A stretch of 20,634 nucleotides of DNA from a virus. The DNA lies in the IMG/VR virus record IMGVR_UViG_3300014050_000025, positions 1 to 20,634 of that record; one strand, 5' to 3'. Below, piece by piece: positions 8,701 to 18,547 of the stretch; the stretch's first letter is position 1; each line of letters opens with the position of its first letter. A program made the position numbers and the translations under genes. The notes below the pieces were generated by a model. The model worked only from the letters and a program-made list of their open reading frames with translations, did not search any database and was not told the origin of the DNA.

Positions 8701-9906
8701 TCAGACTAACGTCGGGTCGGCGCTTTCTGCAGGGGTGTGAAACTTATACGTCGTCTTCTTTGGAACAAAGTCGACGGGGGCCAACAGTTCTCCGACATAT
8801 GGAAATGGCGTCTCTTGCCATTCCGATGCCCGATTTACCTGAATAGCGCTGAGTCGACTCAGTACTAAAGGTTTATCCGGGTTTGTCACAGCTGTAAATA
8901 GCTCTTCGTCGGTCGCCTCGCGGCTGGCCCGTTTTGAAGCCTGCATCCGCAGCATAGTAGCCGTAGTCGATGGCATCTGCTCGATAGCCACCTTAACATC
9001 AATCGTCGCCATCAGCGGGGCGTCGGGCTCCAGCAGCGCATCACACATTTCCTCGTACGTCGGCTTGATTTCGCCAAGTTCGGAGTACATCGCGCTGATG
9101 ATATCGTCGACAATCCACTGCGGCATCCCCTCTGCGCTTTCGAGTCCGTGCCGCGCCAGAATCTTACTGGCCGGATTCGTAAGCGAGACCGTCAGATCTT
9201 TGACGGCCCCAAAGGGGTTTCTTTCAAAATCGCCCAACACAGGCGAAAAATCTTCCAGAGCAGCGTCGTGCCTAATTGCCTTGGAAACTTCCTTGGCGTC
9301 CTCGGGCGTCAGAGCGGCAACATTGACGTACATCTTGTTACCGATCTGCCGAATCATATTATCTCGCAGCTTGCGCCGATACGTCTCAACCAGTTCCGAC
9401 GGGGCATTCTGAATAGCCAAAGCGGTCAACTTATCCTCGTCGACCCGCACATGGTTATTTACAGGAATGTACACCGTCGGCCAGCGGCAGGGCAGAAAAC
9501 TGACCTGCTCGCCGCGCTTATCGGCAAACCCGTAGTCGCAAATTTTGTACAGAAGATCGCAGCCTCGTTTGGCGTTCAGGCAATGCTTCTGTTTGCGGCT
9601 ACATAACTGCGTACCGAAACCCTTGTAAGAAATGGGCGCTCGGAAGTCCCATTTACCAAGCGTTTCGAGCACTACTTTGCCGGAGCGGTCTGCAATCGGT
9701 ACGACGACCGACAGATTAAGCCCGGCATTTTTCGTTACTTCAAGCACAACGGCTGACGGACGGACCCAGTCACCAAATCGACGATAGGGCGTACTGAAGT
9801 TTCGTTTTTCACCGGCGAGCCAGTGAACGGCCACGAACTCCTCGCAACGCGCAGCTACCCGATCGAACGATTCGATGATCTTTGCCTGTGTCTTCGCGAT
9901 ATTCAC
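8701..9906 (-). CDS. Unrecognised 401-aa protein with heptad-spaced cysteines
   Basis: GTG start at 9906, supported by AAAGGAG six bases upstream, inside the preceding gene. Residues 1-95 contain several strands (SAVVLEVTKNAGLNLSVVVP). A segment at 102-123 carries four cysteines exactly seven residues apart (102, 109, 116, 123) within a basic region. Then come FLPCRWPTVYIPVNNHVRVDE, a helical middle (about 160-350), and a C-terminal stretch ending APVDFVPKKTTYKFHTPAE. Length and aromatic, strand-rich ends fit a virion or DNA-handling protein but no family is recognised. The four cysteines could bind zinc or an iron-sulphur cluster, or form one face of a helix. It sits in the unrecognised block upstream of the terminator. 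Confidence 0.78.
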   Translation of the reverse strand: MNIAKTQAKIIESFDRVAARCEEFVAVHWLAGEKRNFSTPYRRFGDWVRPSAVVLEVTKNAGLNLSVVVPIADRSGKVVLETLGKWDFRAPISYKGFGTQLCSRKQKHCLNAKRGCDLLYKICDYGFADKRGEQVSFLPCRWPTVYIPVNNHVRVDEDKLTALAIQNAPSELVETYRRKLRDNMIRQIGNKMYVNVAALTPEDAKEVSKAIRHDAALEDFSPVLGDFERNPFGAVKDLTVSLTNPASKILARHGLESAEGMPQWIVDDIISAMYSELGEIKPTYEEMCDALLEPDAPLMATIDVKVAIEQMPSTTATMLRMQASKRASREATDEELFTAVTNPDKPLVLSRLSAIQVNRASEWQETPFPYVGELLAPVDFVPKKTTYKFHTPAESADPTLV

Positions 9907-11319: not shown

Positions 11320-11958
11320 TCACTTTTTTGAGTGCGACAACCCAGCGTTTGTTGTCTGAATTAACAGCAGCAAAACGAACGCCGCGTCGACCACATTGTC
11401 GATACCTGTCGACTTGTACTTAGTGGAATCAAAAGCAGCACCAAGAGATTTATTGGCTGCCGCAATCATGTCTTCTTTACTGGACTTGCCGTTGCCCGTA
11501 GCAAACTTCTTAATCGTACTGATAGCAAAACCAGTGGCGATAAGATCGGCTTCCTCGGCCCACGTGGCCACAGTCACCTTCATGCCGCCAAGCACTTCAG
11601 AAGCAGTAGCAACACGGGACAAAACCGCGGGAATGCCAAATTTCTTGTTAACAAAAAATTCGCGGGGCGGCGTGTACTTTACGTCTTCGTAGCCGACGAC
11701 GTCTGGATCCACCGTATTCAAAAACGCGCGGAGCCGAACAAACCGCGAGGCACCAGATTCCAATCCCTGCACCGACAAATCCCACTGAAAAAGCTGAAGC
11801 TTTTCCTGCAGCATCTTTTTCCCGGGGATGAAATCATAAACAGCGACACCACAATTGCTGCCCAAGTCGAGCCCAAGAAAACGGATCGCGTCTGCCGGTT
11901 TTTTCTCCAGCTTGCCCCCAAACTGCTTGGGGTCTTTGTACATCCTGTACTTAGGCAC
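11320..11958 (-). CDS. RuvC-like Holliday junction resolvase
   Basis: RNase H-fold endonuclease expected to cut branched DNA intermediates formed by recombination-dependent replication, so that concatemers can be packaged. Length 212 residues from a GTG at 11958, chosen because AGGAG lies six bases upstream; the in-frame TTG at 11964 would touch that site. Motifs: FLGLDLGSNCGVAV with Asp31; VDPDVVGYEDVKY with Glu91 at the end of a strand; and TGIDNVVDAAFVLLL with Asp187 and Asp191 in the C-terminal helix. These match the D-E-D/D metal-binding set of RuvC-type enzymes. The N-terminal 24 residues are a basic extension. Cellular RuvA/RuvB partners are not visible. Substrate choice (four-way versus other branches) cannot be read from sequence. 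Confidence 0.83.
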   Translation of the reverse strand: MPKYRMYKDPKQFGGKLEKKPADAIRFLGLDLGSNCGVAVYDFIPGKKMLQEKLQLFQWDLSVQGLESGASRFVRLRAFLNTVDPDVVGYEDVKYTPPREFFVNKKFGIPAVLSRVATASEVLGGMKVTVATWAEEADLIATGFAISTIKKFATGNGKSSKEDMIAAANKSLGAAFDSTKYKSTGIDNVVDAAFVLLLLIQTTNAGLSHSKK

Positions 11959-11964
11959 GCGCAA

Positions 11965-12664: not shown

Positions 12665-13516
12665 TTACTGGGCGGCTTCAGCATGCTGCGCCGCGTGATG
12701 ACGGCACCGGACGCACATTTGACTGCTGTCGCCGGGATCAAAAAACCTATCGGTTTGACACGCCTCGCAGTAACGAGTTACGTATGTCTTTGCGTGCGTA
12801 GCAAACTGACACTGGTCCTGCCCCAGCCAACAATGAATACACGCGTGCTCGTAGTTTTCGGGGCATGGCCGCGCGCGGGTACGCACTTCGATCCGGGTGC
12901 GGTTGTGCTGAAACATGCTGCTGCTGACGCTGATCGTGGAGAATGACGGCGTCTCGCGACTCTTGGCTGCCTCCACATGCGCAAAGAACAGCAGGTCAAC
13001 AAAGTGCATTGCGGTCGTAAAAGCGTAAGCGCCCCACGGCGCCGAAAAGCCCATAACCTGCGCAATCGCATAACAGCTGTTCTGACTAAAAAATTGCGTA
13101 AATTTCATCGGGCACGGTGAACCAGCAACCGCGCGACAATCAAGTAAATAGCCGGGTTTGTTCTTACGGGTATACGGTCGTACGTTTTCTACGATGACCG
13201 GCACGAGTTCGTCTTCCATTTGCCGCGTCCACGGTAACGCCGGCAAACCCGCTTTTAATTTTTCAATATTGCCGGCAATGCGCCACGCAAGTGTAGACGC
13301 GACCGGTCGTGTTAATGTTGTACCAGCCAGCGCACGAATCGAATCGAATAGCGCCGGCTGAGACACCGAATCGGGTAGCTCGGCTAACGTGTCGCGGCAA
13401 ACGTCGCGCAGCGTGTCTCCGACCATATTTGCGTCGATATATGGTCGGAGGGCACGCTGCGCAATTCGGTCGCGGTACTGCCGAACGCGAATATAACTAA
13501 ACGGTGGGCGTTTCAT
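12665..13516 (-). CDS. Protein with C-terminal cysteine-rich zinc region, 283 aa
   Basis: ATG at 13516 with AGGGG four bases upstream; the start overlaps the end of the upstream gene by 20 bases. The first 120 residues are basic and helical. The middle (about 121-215) has a hydrophobic helix-like stretch with AYAFTTAMHFVDLLFFAHVE. The C-terminal 70 residues carry clustered Cys/His: C218, H224, C226, C229, C236, then C250-x2-C253 and C268-x2-C271 followed by two histidines. This suggests one or two zinc ribbons, so nucleic-acid or protein binding is likely. No catalytic signature is visible. Codons 18-37 lie in a 22-bp inverted repeat (13406-13462). The family is not recognised. Confidence 0.76.
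   Translation of the reverse strand: MKRPPFSYIRVRQYRDRIAQRALRPYIDANMVGDTLRDVCRDTLAELPDSVSQPALFDSIRALAGTTLTRPVASTLAWRIAGNIEKLKAGLPALPWTRQMEDELVPVIVENVRPYTRKNKPGYLLDCRAVAGSPCPMKFTQFFSQNSCYAIAQVMGFSAPWGAYAFTTAMHFVDLLFFAHVEAAKSRETPSFSTISVSSSMFQHNRTRIEVRTRARPCPENYEHACIHCWLGQDQCQFATHAKTYVTRYCEACQTDRFFDPGDSSQMCVRCRHHAAQHAEAAQ
13406..13462. repeat. Long inverted repeat (22-bp interrupted stem)
   Basis: Left arm 13406-13415 (GCGCAGCGTG) and 13417-13428 (CTCCGACCATAT); right arm 13439-13450 (ATATGGTCGGAG) and 13453-13462 (CACGCTGCGC). The two 10- and 12-bp blocks are perfectly complementary, interrupted only by one base on the left (13416) and two on the right (13451-13452). The loop is 10 bases (13429-13438). 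It lies within codons 18-37 of the cysteine-rich protein gene. No T-run follows on either strand, so it is not a standard terminator. Confidence 0.92.
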
Positions 13517-15898: not shown

Positions 15899-16786
15899 CT
15901 ATCGCGTCATGTCGGAACGGCGACGCGGGGAAGCATCTTGCTCTTCCGTATCGTCTTCAACTTCTTCTCGTTTGTTCAGCTCTTCCTGAACTTTGGCGCA
16001 CATTGCGCGGTGATCAGCCACAAGATCCGACATTTTGTCGAAGTTCTCGATAATTTCCGCAAAATATCCCTGCGTTGTTGCATCAAACTTAGTCGGCGAC
16101 GCATTTGCGATGTCATCGTAAATATTGTCGCGCTTTTCGTTCAGCCACAGCGTTTCGGATCGCGCGATCCAACGCCGCTGATGCTGTAATAAATCGTGCA
16201 GCTGCTGCTTCAGGCCCTTGGGCGCCTGATGCGTGCGCCCGCTACTCTTCTGCTTGCCCCGCATCTCCTGCAGCTCGGTAGCCAGCGTACGAGCAGTGTA
16301 TGCTTCTTCAGCGCACTTCTCCTCGATGGCTGCGCGCTGCTGATCGTCGGGAATCTGCGCCAGCAACTGTACGTGCGACGTTGTCAGCCGCCACCGCGGA
16401 CGATCGGGGCAGCGCAGCGACAAGAGCCGGACGATCTCAGCCTCGCTGGGATACTTCTCGAAGAAGTTTACAGCCCCGCGAAGCTGATCCACGGTGTACA
16501 CAGGCGCGAAAATCGACATGAGCAAAGCCGCGCCGTCGATATGCTGTGCCTGCTGTTCCGCGGTCAGGTACTGCTCGGGGTCGCCCTTGACCTCTGTAAT
16601 GAGTCGGCCAATCCGCCAGTACGCCGTCAGACTTGCGGCCTGCGCGTCACTAAACAGATTGTCGATCTCAGACACTACATCCTGCAGTGCCGGCGTCAAA
16701 TTCTCCACGGCTGCTAAATATGGCGAATTTCTCGATTCAACAAGGTCAGCTTGAATCATCGCCGCGGCCTTTGACTTCCTACCCAT
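15899..16786 (-). CDS. DUF1016 N-terminal-like protein, 295 aa
   Basis: ATG at 16786 with AAGGAGA about six bases upstream. In order it shows AYWRIGRLITEVKG (55-68), VDQLRGAVNFFEKYPSEAE (99-117), RWRLTTSHVQLLAQIPDDQQ (131-150), and a helix EAYTARTLATELQEM (161-175). This is the order of the DUF1016/YhcG N-terminal domain, whose family members have Y-W-x-I-G-R, then a pattern like W-S-H-x-x-L-L, then a helix reading R-E-L. No C-terminal PD-(D/E)XK nuclease motif is seen. Instead the last 110 residues are charged helices ending in an Asp/Glu-rich then arginine-rich tail. So it may be a DNA-binding module without a nuclease. The similarity is by eye and moderate. Confidence 0.5.
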   Translation of the reverse strand: MGRKSKAAAMIQADLVESRNSPYLAAVENLTPALQDVVSEIDNLFSDAQAASLTAYWRIGRLITEVKGDPEQYLTAEQQAQHIDGAALLMSIFAPVYTVDQLRGAVNFFEKYPSEAEIVRLLSLRCPDRPRWRLTTSHVQLLAQIPDDQQRAAIEEKCAEEAYTARTLATELQEMRGKQKSSGRTHQAPKGLKQQLHDLLQHQRRWIARSETLWLNEKRDNIYDDIANASPTKFDATTQGYFAEIIENFDKMSDLVADHRAMCAKVQEELNKREEVEDDTEEQDASPRRRSDMTR

Positions 16787-16815: not shown

Positions 16816-17970
16816 CTATTTATGTTTCCGACTTTTTACGTCGGGAATCAACAACTTGAGTGCTGTTGTTTGAAGCATGTCGCGCAGCGTATGGTAGTGT
16901 CCGCGCGAGTATCGAAGAATAGAACAAAACAAGTCATACGCTGTGCGAGTGCGCAGCACTTCTTTTGTGTAAACATCAATCGGATCGCGGGGCTCAATAT
17001 CAGCCCCGACTACCGCCGCGTTTTTGACGATTTGTTTGGCGTCTTCCCGCGGCACTTTGAATTTTCCAAGATACGCGATCCACTTCTCGTTTGCTGCTTC
17101 CATCGTGGCGCGATCTGGCGAAAACTCTAACGACAAGCCGGCTAGCGCGCGCACGCGTTTCGCCACCACGTCCATGTCGATTGCCCGTTCGGCAACCTTG
17201 GCCGCCAGAATAGACGTCCGGCCAATCAAGTCGGCGCCGGTGTGATTCAATCTGCCACCGACGCCCGGCGGCGAAATCGCAGCGCCAAACCGGGTATACA
17301 CGCACGTAGACGCACGAATTGCGTTACCTGTGTCTTCGCGATTTGAGAAATACCAGCCGCCGGCGAACGAGTGGCGCGGGTCGATATAGATATCAGTACG
17401 GCGCGATTTGGGGTCGATGAAATACAGCCGCAGTTCGCGACCCAGCAGCTCAGCCCGAAAAAACTCAGCGGACGGTTGTTTGTCTGCCAACTCGTTCCGT
17501 ACGGTCTCCAGAAACACGCTGTTATCGAGCATCCTGTGGTCGAGCCCTAGGAAGCCCTCAATCGTCTGCTCGCGGTGATTCACGAGCAGATTGCGCTCGC
17601 GAAGCGCATCAAAGCGGACCCGCAGCGTTGTGTTGTACACGCTGACAGCCGCCGCTATGTCAGTCGCGCGCTCCAGCGATTTAAACTGTCTAACGTTTTC
17701 GCCAGACAGCTCATTAAACAGTTGCGACAACCCGACAGATAATACAGATGCCAACGCACGAAAGCCGATGGCGTTGAACCGGTAGCCGTTTTCAAGAATC
17801 CGTCCGTCAGGCCCCATGATCAGCTGGGACTCTTCTACGATCGGAACGGACTCGGTACTGGCGGAGCGTGTCTCTAAAAAATTGCGGCAGTCCTCGTACT
17901 GCTGCGCCGAGAAAGAGAAAGCCGGCACGGGCGCAAACACACTGCGGCTTGTTGACGCAACCGACGACAT
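16816..17970 (-). CDS. Unrecognised phage protein, 384 aa
   Basis: ATG at 17970 with AGGAG six bases upstream. A flexible serine-rich start is followed by YRFNAIGFRALASVLSVGLS and a helix with NELSGENVRQF, a long helical region (TTLRVRFDALRERNLLVNHR), then RMLDNSVFLETV. A central beta part contains AELLGRELRLYFIDPKSRRT and SFAGGWYFSNREDTGNA. The C-terminal half is helical and ends in a lysine-rich tail. The order of a beta domain amid helices vaguely recalls the DUF932 group of phage/plasmid proteins, but I cannot confirm that. It is one of the larger unrecognised genes in the recombinase-proximal block. No catalytic residues are assignable. Confidence 0.74.
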   Translation of the reverse strand: MSSVASTSRSVFAPVPAFSFSAQQYEDCRNFLETRSASTESVPIVEESQLIMGPDGRILENGYRFNAIGFRALASVLSVGLSQLFNELSGENVRQFKSLERATDIAAAVSVYNTTLRVRFDALRERNLLVNHREQTIEGFLGLDHRMLDNSVFLETVRNELADKQPSAEFFRAELLGRELRLYFIDPKSRRTDIYIDPRHSFAGGWYFSNREDTGNAIRASTCVYTRFGAAISPPGVGGRLNHTGADLIGRTSILAAKVAERAIDMDVVAKRVRALAGLSLEFSPDRATMEAANEKWIAYLGKFKVPREDAKQIVKNAAVVGADIEPRDPIDVYTKEVLRTRTAYDLFCSILRYSRGHYHTLRDMLQTTALKLLIPDVKSRKHK

Positions 17971-17986
17971 CCGACGCTCCTACCAA

Positions 17987-18547
17987 TCAGTCGTAAAACC
18001 AGTCTGATCCGACTGTCCCGAAGAACATGGCTGTTGGCTCGACAACCAGCGGGCGTGTGCCTTGCCCGAGATTAAGGCGCCACGATACGCGCGGCTGATT
18101 TATGTCCTCTGTTTCGTAGTTGTGCGCGCAAAACATGGTCCGCACGACAGGGAAGCAGAAAATAAACCGACGGCTGCTGTCAATTTCATCGCGATGAAGA
18201 CTTTTGGCAATAGCAGAGCACAGACGATTTTTGCCGTTGCTGGATATCTTTAACAGATCTGCCAAAGTAATTTCGTGTAGCCGTGGGATACGCCGACCAC
18301 ATAATATGCCCGGAAAGCGCTGAAACGTTGAGTTGAACCAGCTGAAGTTTAACTTGTCGTGTCCGGTCATATTTCGGCATTCGTTTGCGTATCGTCCCCA
18401 GCCGGATACTGAAATTCCGCACTCTTTAAACACGCGCTTGATAATGCGCTCTTCAAACGCCAGCTGCCGCTGAAACCGAATAGCTTCCGCGCCTTGGCTG
18501 TCGTTACTGAACAGCTCGCCGAAGAACTGGTCGCGCGGGTCAGCCAT
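17987..18547 (-). CDS. Unrecognised phage protein, 186 aa
   Basis: ATG at 18547 overlaps the end of the upstream DUF551-like gene by eight bases, with no strong ribosome binding site, so it is probably coupled. Residues 1-60 are helical and charged. The middle has KLNFSWFNSTFQRFPGILCG then RIPRLHEITLADLLKISSNG. The C-terminal third is rich in aromatic residues and strands (RRFIFCFPVVRTMFCAHNYE, VVEPTAMFFGTVGSDWFYD). It has several cysteines (including 43, 58, 83 and 109) without C-x2-C pairs. No family is recognised; it looks like a compact alpha/beta protein. Confidence 0.73.
   Translation of the reverse strand: MADPRDQFFGELFSNDSQGAEAIRFQRQLAFEERIIKRVFKECGISVSGWGRYANECRNMTGHDKLNFSWFNSTFQRFPGILCGRRIPRLHEITLADLLKISSNGKNRLCSAIAKSLHRDEIDSSRRFIFCFPVVRTMFCAHNYETEDINQPRVSWRLNLGQGTRPLVVEPTAMFFGTVGSDWFYD

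Follow-up and report, generated by a model that had tools for sequence, protein, structure and literature searches.

A Long Hairpin Within a Phage Coding Sequence and Its Recurrence in Related Phages

In phages T4 and RB69, the operator of gene 32 is a folded mRNA element whose sequence has diverged between the related phages while its function was kept. The T4 element folds as a pseudoknot and precedes the ribosome-binding site, within the 5' leader (PMC535899, PMC3014915). The locus described here is similar in combining a folded mRNA element with a phage product that is weakly predicted to be an OB-fold, ssDNA-binding-like zinc protein. It differs in that the element is a plain hairpin inside the coding sequence, and no sequence homology of the 283-residue product to gp32 was found. 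Because the pseudoknot of T4 sits in the leader, the parallel can be drawn at the level of function only. A gene 32-type leader, with a pseudoknot and A/U-rich repeats over the ribosome-binding site, was not seen in the fold of positions -40 to +170 under a model that excludes pseudoknots.

Like the coding-region mRNA structures of E. coli (PMC3763529), in which folding is conserved at synonymous sites within the coding sequence, the phage hairpin beats synonymous shuffles and shows compensatory pairing, here in a clade of five phages plus the phage of the window. Unlike them, it is a single 22-bp hairpin, the strongest in its window, is found in a dsDNA phage, and shifts position between lineages. 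Near-perfect inverted repeats inside genes for conserved proteins are also described in reports on template-switch hairpins (PMC8794818) and on Nematomorpha mitochondrial palindromes (PMC6649704). In Nematomorpha the coding palindromes occur in large numbers and reach 284 bp (PMC6649704), whereas the phage hairpins are short and few, with covariation and synonymous conservation. No description of comparable hairpins in phages of this type was found in the literature searched.

The hairpin and its host gene

The window is a stretch of 20,634 nt from the viral record IMGVR_UViG_3300014050_000025, and the hairpin lies at 13406-13462 in a minus-strand gene (Table 1). Direct reading bears out the arms of 10 and 12 bp, 10-base loop and 1/2-base bulge described in the initial annotation, with the correction that the structure spans codons 19-37 rather than 18-37. 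All 22 of its 22 pairs are Watson-Crick in the window phage, and the 12-bp inner arms were also recovered by a repeat search of the window. The hairpin lies 54 nt past the start codon, and the fold leaves the ribosome-binding site uncovered. A likeness to an intrinsic terminator is limited to the strong GC-rich stem: the hairpin is intragenic, within a 283-codon ORF and not between genes, has a 2-nt/1-nt internal bulge, and is followed by no T-run (GACGTTTGCCGC in mRNA sense), as the annotation had remarked. Programmed frameshifting was also set aside, as no slippery heptamer was seen by eye just upstream of the stem.

The annotation had judged by eye that nothing else in the window approaches the hairpin, and it is the most stable 70-nt segment there, at -41.7 kcal/mol; all such segments average -18.1 (sd 5.4). 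The two strands of the hairpin fold at -42.6 and -45.3 kcal/mol. When synonymous codons were permuted within the hairpin's own gene, the shuffled versions averaged -18.8 (sd 4.0) and 0 of 1000 reached the native stability (z -5.7), in keeping with the claim that such a stem was very unlikely by chance. Across 300 shuffled versions no segment of the gene folded better than -37.6. The stability of the hairpin thus goes far beyond what is needed to encode the protein. These values weigh against the structure being a chance extreme noticed in a 20-kb window, although it was indeed picked as an extreme and some control genes also hold hairpins with z < -5.

A 14.2-kb contig, IMGVR_UViG_3300012000_001176, has the identical hairpin and matches the window with 1 mismatch in 14,200. 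This makes an assembly error less likely, though the contig represents the same virus. The annotation had proposed looking for the palindrome elsewhere in the genome; the 65.7-kb parent record holds no second copy, and the hairpin is therefore neither a repeated nor a mobile element. An Rfam scan of the window gave no match above the curated gathering threshold.

The 283-aa protein has no match in Pfam, PHROGs or the PDB sequence profile, the gene has no DNA match in annotated phage records, and GTDB genomes encode no homologue. Viral contigs were scanned with the 283-aa protein, one homologue and a large 640-aa neighbor as queries. The scans gave about 40 distinct homologues in uncultured phage contigs, several of these contigs being of ~200 kb. 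The 640-aa neighbor has no PHROG match and is provisionally taken to be a portal-like protein. Modelled with AlphaFold2 on the alignment of the family (pLDDT 84), the protein is predicted to have N-terminal helices, an OB-fold-like barrel at residues ~103-196 (strand-strand-strand-helix-strand-strand) and a Cys-rich C-terminus that is probably zinc-binding. The best PDB matches in Foldseek are ssDNA-binding OB folds, PrgE (E 1e-3) and LEF-3 (E 0.035), with a TM-score to the query of only 0.2, and matches in BFVD include DUF669/SSB-like phage proteins; the scores of all these matches are weak. The model weakly suggests that the product is possibly an ssDNA-binding protein. The SSB family PF00436 was not found in the parent record or in the records of six relatives, so the 283-aa protein might serve the phage as its ssDNA-binding protein. 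Genes for a UvsX-like recombinase and a RuvC-like resolvase are encoded in the same window.

Two side observations concern the gene and the window. At 13496-13501 (codons 6-7), Ser7 is encoded by AGY in 36 of the 36 homologues with Ser at that place, while about 40% of the family's other Ser codons are AGY; the bias may be inertia, as going from AGY to TCN needs two changes. At the window end, 1-1486, two genes have collagen-like Gly-x-y / GATGPTG repeats, and the near-identical contig is cut inside the repeat.

Table 1. Coordinates of the hairpin, its host gene and other hairpins; positions are those of the window unless the parent record is named.
Feature	Position	Strand	Details
Host gene of the hairpin, 283-aa protein	12665-13516	-	ORF and translation
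Outer stem, one arm	13406-13415	-	GCGCAGCGTG; 3' arm in mRNA sense, codons 34-37, 10 bp
Bulge T	13416	-	Read directly
Inner stem, one arm	13417-13428	-	CTCCGACCATAT; 3' arm in mRNA sense, codons 30-34, 12 bp
Apical loop, 10 nt	13429-13438	-	Sequence and fold
Inner stem, other arm	13439-13450	-	ATATGGTCGGAG; 5' arm in mRNA sense, codons 23-26, 12 bp
Bulge GG	13451-13452	-	Read directly
Outer stem, other arm	13453-13462	-	CACGCTGCGC; 5' arm in mRNA sense, codons 19-22, 10 bp
Genes with further conserved coding hairpins, clade scan	genes 16816-17970, 15899-16786, 8701-9906, 17987-18547, 11320-11964		Consensus fold
Coding hairpins	16601-16666, 8827-8898, 18446-18505, 11890-11955	-	Minus-strand genes; significant consensus folds in the five-phage clade
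Strong hairpins, parent record G000:C1	48007-48072, 57258-57323		Between called ORFs, terminator-like
Strong hairpin, parent record G000:C1	53353-53418		Touches 5' end of an ORF call
Very stable intergenic hairpin, parent record G000:C1	20698-20763		Just outside the window, immediately upstream of the UvsX-like recombinase gene

Recurrence and covariation among relatives

In a tree built without the hairpin region, the window phage falls outside a group made up of L008, L007/L009 and a clade of five phages (L013, L002, L016, L014 and L015), with L010 further out. Fourfold-degenerate sites differ at 0.54-0.64 between the window phage and the five-phage clade, and similarly between any of these lineages, suggesting that synonymous sites between the window phage and the clade are near saturation. 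The same hairpin is found at the homologous place in all five phages of the clade (z -4.9 in L014, -3.1 in L015, and -1.5 to -1.9 in the others). Pairing of the inner stem is above the synonymous null in L001, L014, L015 and L016 and weaker in L013 and L002. The window phage and L014 both have z < -3 at the same folding window, which in other genes occurs in 1 of 1498 folding windows.

The hairpin is lineage-restricted, not universal. It is absent at the homologous place in L008, L010, L007/L009, L025 and L067, with the amino acids kept, and two of these lineages (L008 and L007/L009) are intermediate in the tree, separating the window phage from the clade that has the hairpin. The initial annotation had named, as what would refute its reading, homologues with conserved amino acids and lost pairing together with synonymous shuffles that fold as stably; these lineages display the loss of pairing, while five others keep both pairing and amino acids. 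The full 10-bp outer register is private to the window phage, while 5 of the 10 outer pairs are kept in 6/6 hairpin-bearing phages. Q20 and M31 are residues of this segment private to the window phage among its close relatives.

We tested the consensus fold prospectively, with the place predefined and the window phage left out, by permuting whole alignment columns of same-amino-acid codons so that relatedness was kept. For L014, L015, L013, L002 and L016, RNAalifold gave -26.7 against -12.3 in the shuffles (sd 3.2, z -4.5), a value that 0 of 500 reached. The hairpin-less set of L008, L010, L007, L025 and L067 served as a working negative control (z 0.1). Three of the 22 pairs in the RNAalifold consensus have both sides changed. 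Columns 9/55, which join the third base of codon 20 to the first base of codon 36, are G-C, G-U or A-U in 6/6 hairpin-bearing phages. Within the clade these codons read GAG/CTG, GAG/TTG (G-U) or GAA/TTG, all synonymous, and L002 suggests a G-U intermediate. Columns 21/44, the third base of codon 24 and the second base of codon 32, are A-U in the window phage and G-C in the clade. Pairing is kept by paired changes in this one clade, with the caveat that only six sequences carry the hairpin and few pairs have double changes. A plain pair-count control was modest, its covariation score being reached by 20/500 shuffles, and the case for the hairpin is therefore not rested on it. Paired codons in L013, L002 and L016 are identical in 7/8 cases, against 92/249 elsewhere (p 0.006).

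The prospective test, in which relatives independently show the hairpin at the homologous place, largely refutes chance, which we now regard as highly improbable. RNA-level constraint is a better explanation of the hairpin than chance.

Recent palindromic duplication, another origin put forward in the annotation, is unlikely to be the sole explanation, because the same hairpin is present in lineages with near-saturated synonymous divergence. Template-switch "perfecting" of an older hairpin is possible. A broader proposal is that template switching ("quasi-palindrome correction") accounts for the hairpin entirely. In this process one arm of an imperfect inverted repeat is copied onto the other during replication; amino-acid and codon constraints would seed quasi-palindromes in the gene, and replication errors would perfect them in some lineages, no function being involved. 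The process is established and can both create and maintain hairpins with apparent compensatory changes (PMC8794818; PMC7202029), and its effects in coding sequence are documented (PMC8604942). The patchy distribution of the hairpin among close relatives would suit it, as would Q20 and M31, both of which improve pairing, though selection fits these residues equally. Unselected palindromes should, however, decay at synonymous sites, yet paired codons are conserved here and in the second hairpin described below, and the structure persists across near-saturated divergence. Branches of the tree are long. We consider template switching without function possible but somewhat unlikely; persistence and synonymous conservation favor selection, for which template switching may have provided the starting structures.

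A second hairpin in the gene and hairpins elsewhere

In a scan of 442 ORFs (367 kb) for the strongest hairpins, three of the top 30 had z < -5, and all three are in this gene, in the window phage, L014 and L046. The L046 homologue is 52% identical and belongs to a more distant clade, and its hairpin is a different one, equally long but placed 10-12 codons downstream at codons 32-49, with segment 32-36 in common with the right arm of the first hairpin. L055, L095, L096 and L098 also have the hairpin at codons 32-49. Its columns 6/54 show an exchange of C-G for G-C, and other paired changes are present. With relatedness kept, the consensus fold of the five phages has a z of -2.95 (P 0.004), while the subsets give -4.9 for L046, L055 and L095 alone and -5.5 for L096 and L098 alone. 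In L046, L055 and L095, 9/11 paired codons are identical compared with 43/171 elsewhere (p 0.00025), and no other stretch of the gene is as conserved at synonymous sites. A search for further homologues of the two hairpin clades found no new members. Overall, a 5'-region hairpin with z <= -4.2 is present in 10/40 homologues and in 7/131 members of four neighboring gene families, a comparison made with unequal shuffle numbers (120 and 50).

The coding sequence of these phages in general folds somewhat better than its synonymous shuffles, with a mean z of about -0.4 to -0.5. Hairpin-rich coding sequence is therefore common to these phages and part of the signal is not specific to the gene. This general excess of coding hairpins also accords with template switching. 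In native alignments of 21 genes from the five-phage clade, 41 windows had z <= -3 and 15 had z <= -4, compared with 8-14 and 1-5, respectively, in shuffled ones. Conserved coding hairpins are 4-6 times over-represented elsewhere in the operon region. These coding hairpins and the one studied suggest a genome-wide set, so that the latter stands out as the strongest case of a broader trend and is no isolated oddity. Perfect stems of 7-8 bp are in about 1.45-fold excess in native over shuffled genes; a mutational process and selection are not separable by stem counts, as long stems are too few.

A second long inverted repeat in coding sequence (14 nt, 93%) was observed at 16880-16948 in the minus-strand gene 16816-17970, and also at ~16963-17034. 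In relatives, nearby homologous segments fold into a hairpin that is conserved and shows paired synonymous changes, CACGCGGG/CCCTGCGTG versus CGCGTGGG/CCCTACGCG.

Outside the window, the parent record has comparable hairpins of -38 to -43 per 66 nt. The intergenic one next to the window is present with diverged arms in L006, L016, L007 and L009. With the upstream gene on one side and the UvsX-like gene on the other, it fits an intergenic terminator or processing role better than the studied hairpin does.

Probable selection on the folded mRNA

Perfect Watson-Crick pairing in the window phage lets the hairpin fold well on both strands, and the gene is near those for the UvsX-like recombinase and RuvC-like resolvase. 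Both features would suit a DNA-level site, whether duplex, extruded cruciform or ssDNA hairpin, used for replication start, recombination or protein binding. The palindrome is single copy, though, its sequence diverges between lineages, its position shifts within the gene, and relatives have G-U pairs in the sense RNA. No positive evidence emerged for the replication or recombination site that the initial annotation had offered, and we think a DNA-level role quite unlikely. The sense strand gives a slightly better consensus fold than the antisense strand for both hairpins, a difference within the null spread for the hairpin at codons 19-37. Tests of G-U versus A-C and of sense versus antisense lean to the sense RNA, not decisively for that hairpin. 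The sense preference of the other tested hairpins is biased because they were chosen by sense folding.

On balance, and leaving function aside, we favor by a little the reading that the hairpin is an mRNA structure under selection. The annotation's idea of a structured RNA controlling translation or decay gains from the compensatory synonymous changes and the consensus fold as regards selection on pairing; the control role itself we only infer. The selected molecule would be the folded sense RNA, a long hairpin in the mRNA of a gene from the replication and recombination region. Its exact position would be flexible within the first ~60 codons, and it would be one of several such hairpins. It may act as a local structural barrier, or as a target for a protein or RNase, and so tune translation or mRNA lifetime; as a specific mechanism we rate this as unlikely. 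If the product is an ssDNA-binding protein, one might speculate about autogenous repression by analogy with T4 gene 32. Doubtful still is a fuller scheme, in which movable coding-region hairpins would regulate the replication and recombination gene block in large uncultured phages of this lineage and the predicted OB-fold ssDNA-binding protein would control its own synthesis via this one.

Conserved RNA structure inside the genes of dsDNA phages is a little-studied subject. Here, one gene of a divergent phage family has two structurally independent hairpins with compensatory synonymous changes, so that selection on RNA within a protein-coding gene can be tested here directly. The family also offers a natural test of whether hairpins may arise by template switching and then be kept by selection.
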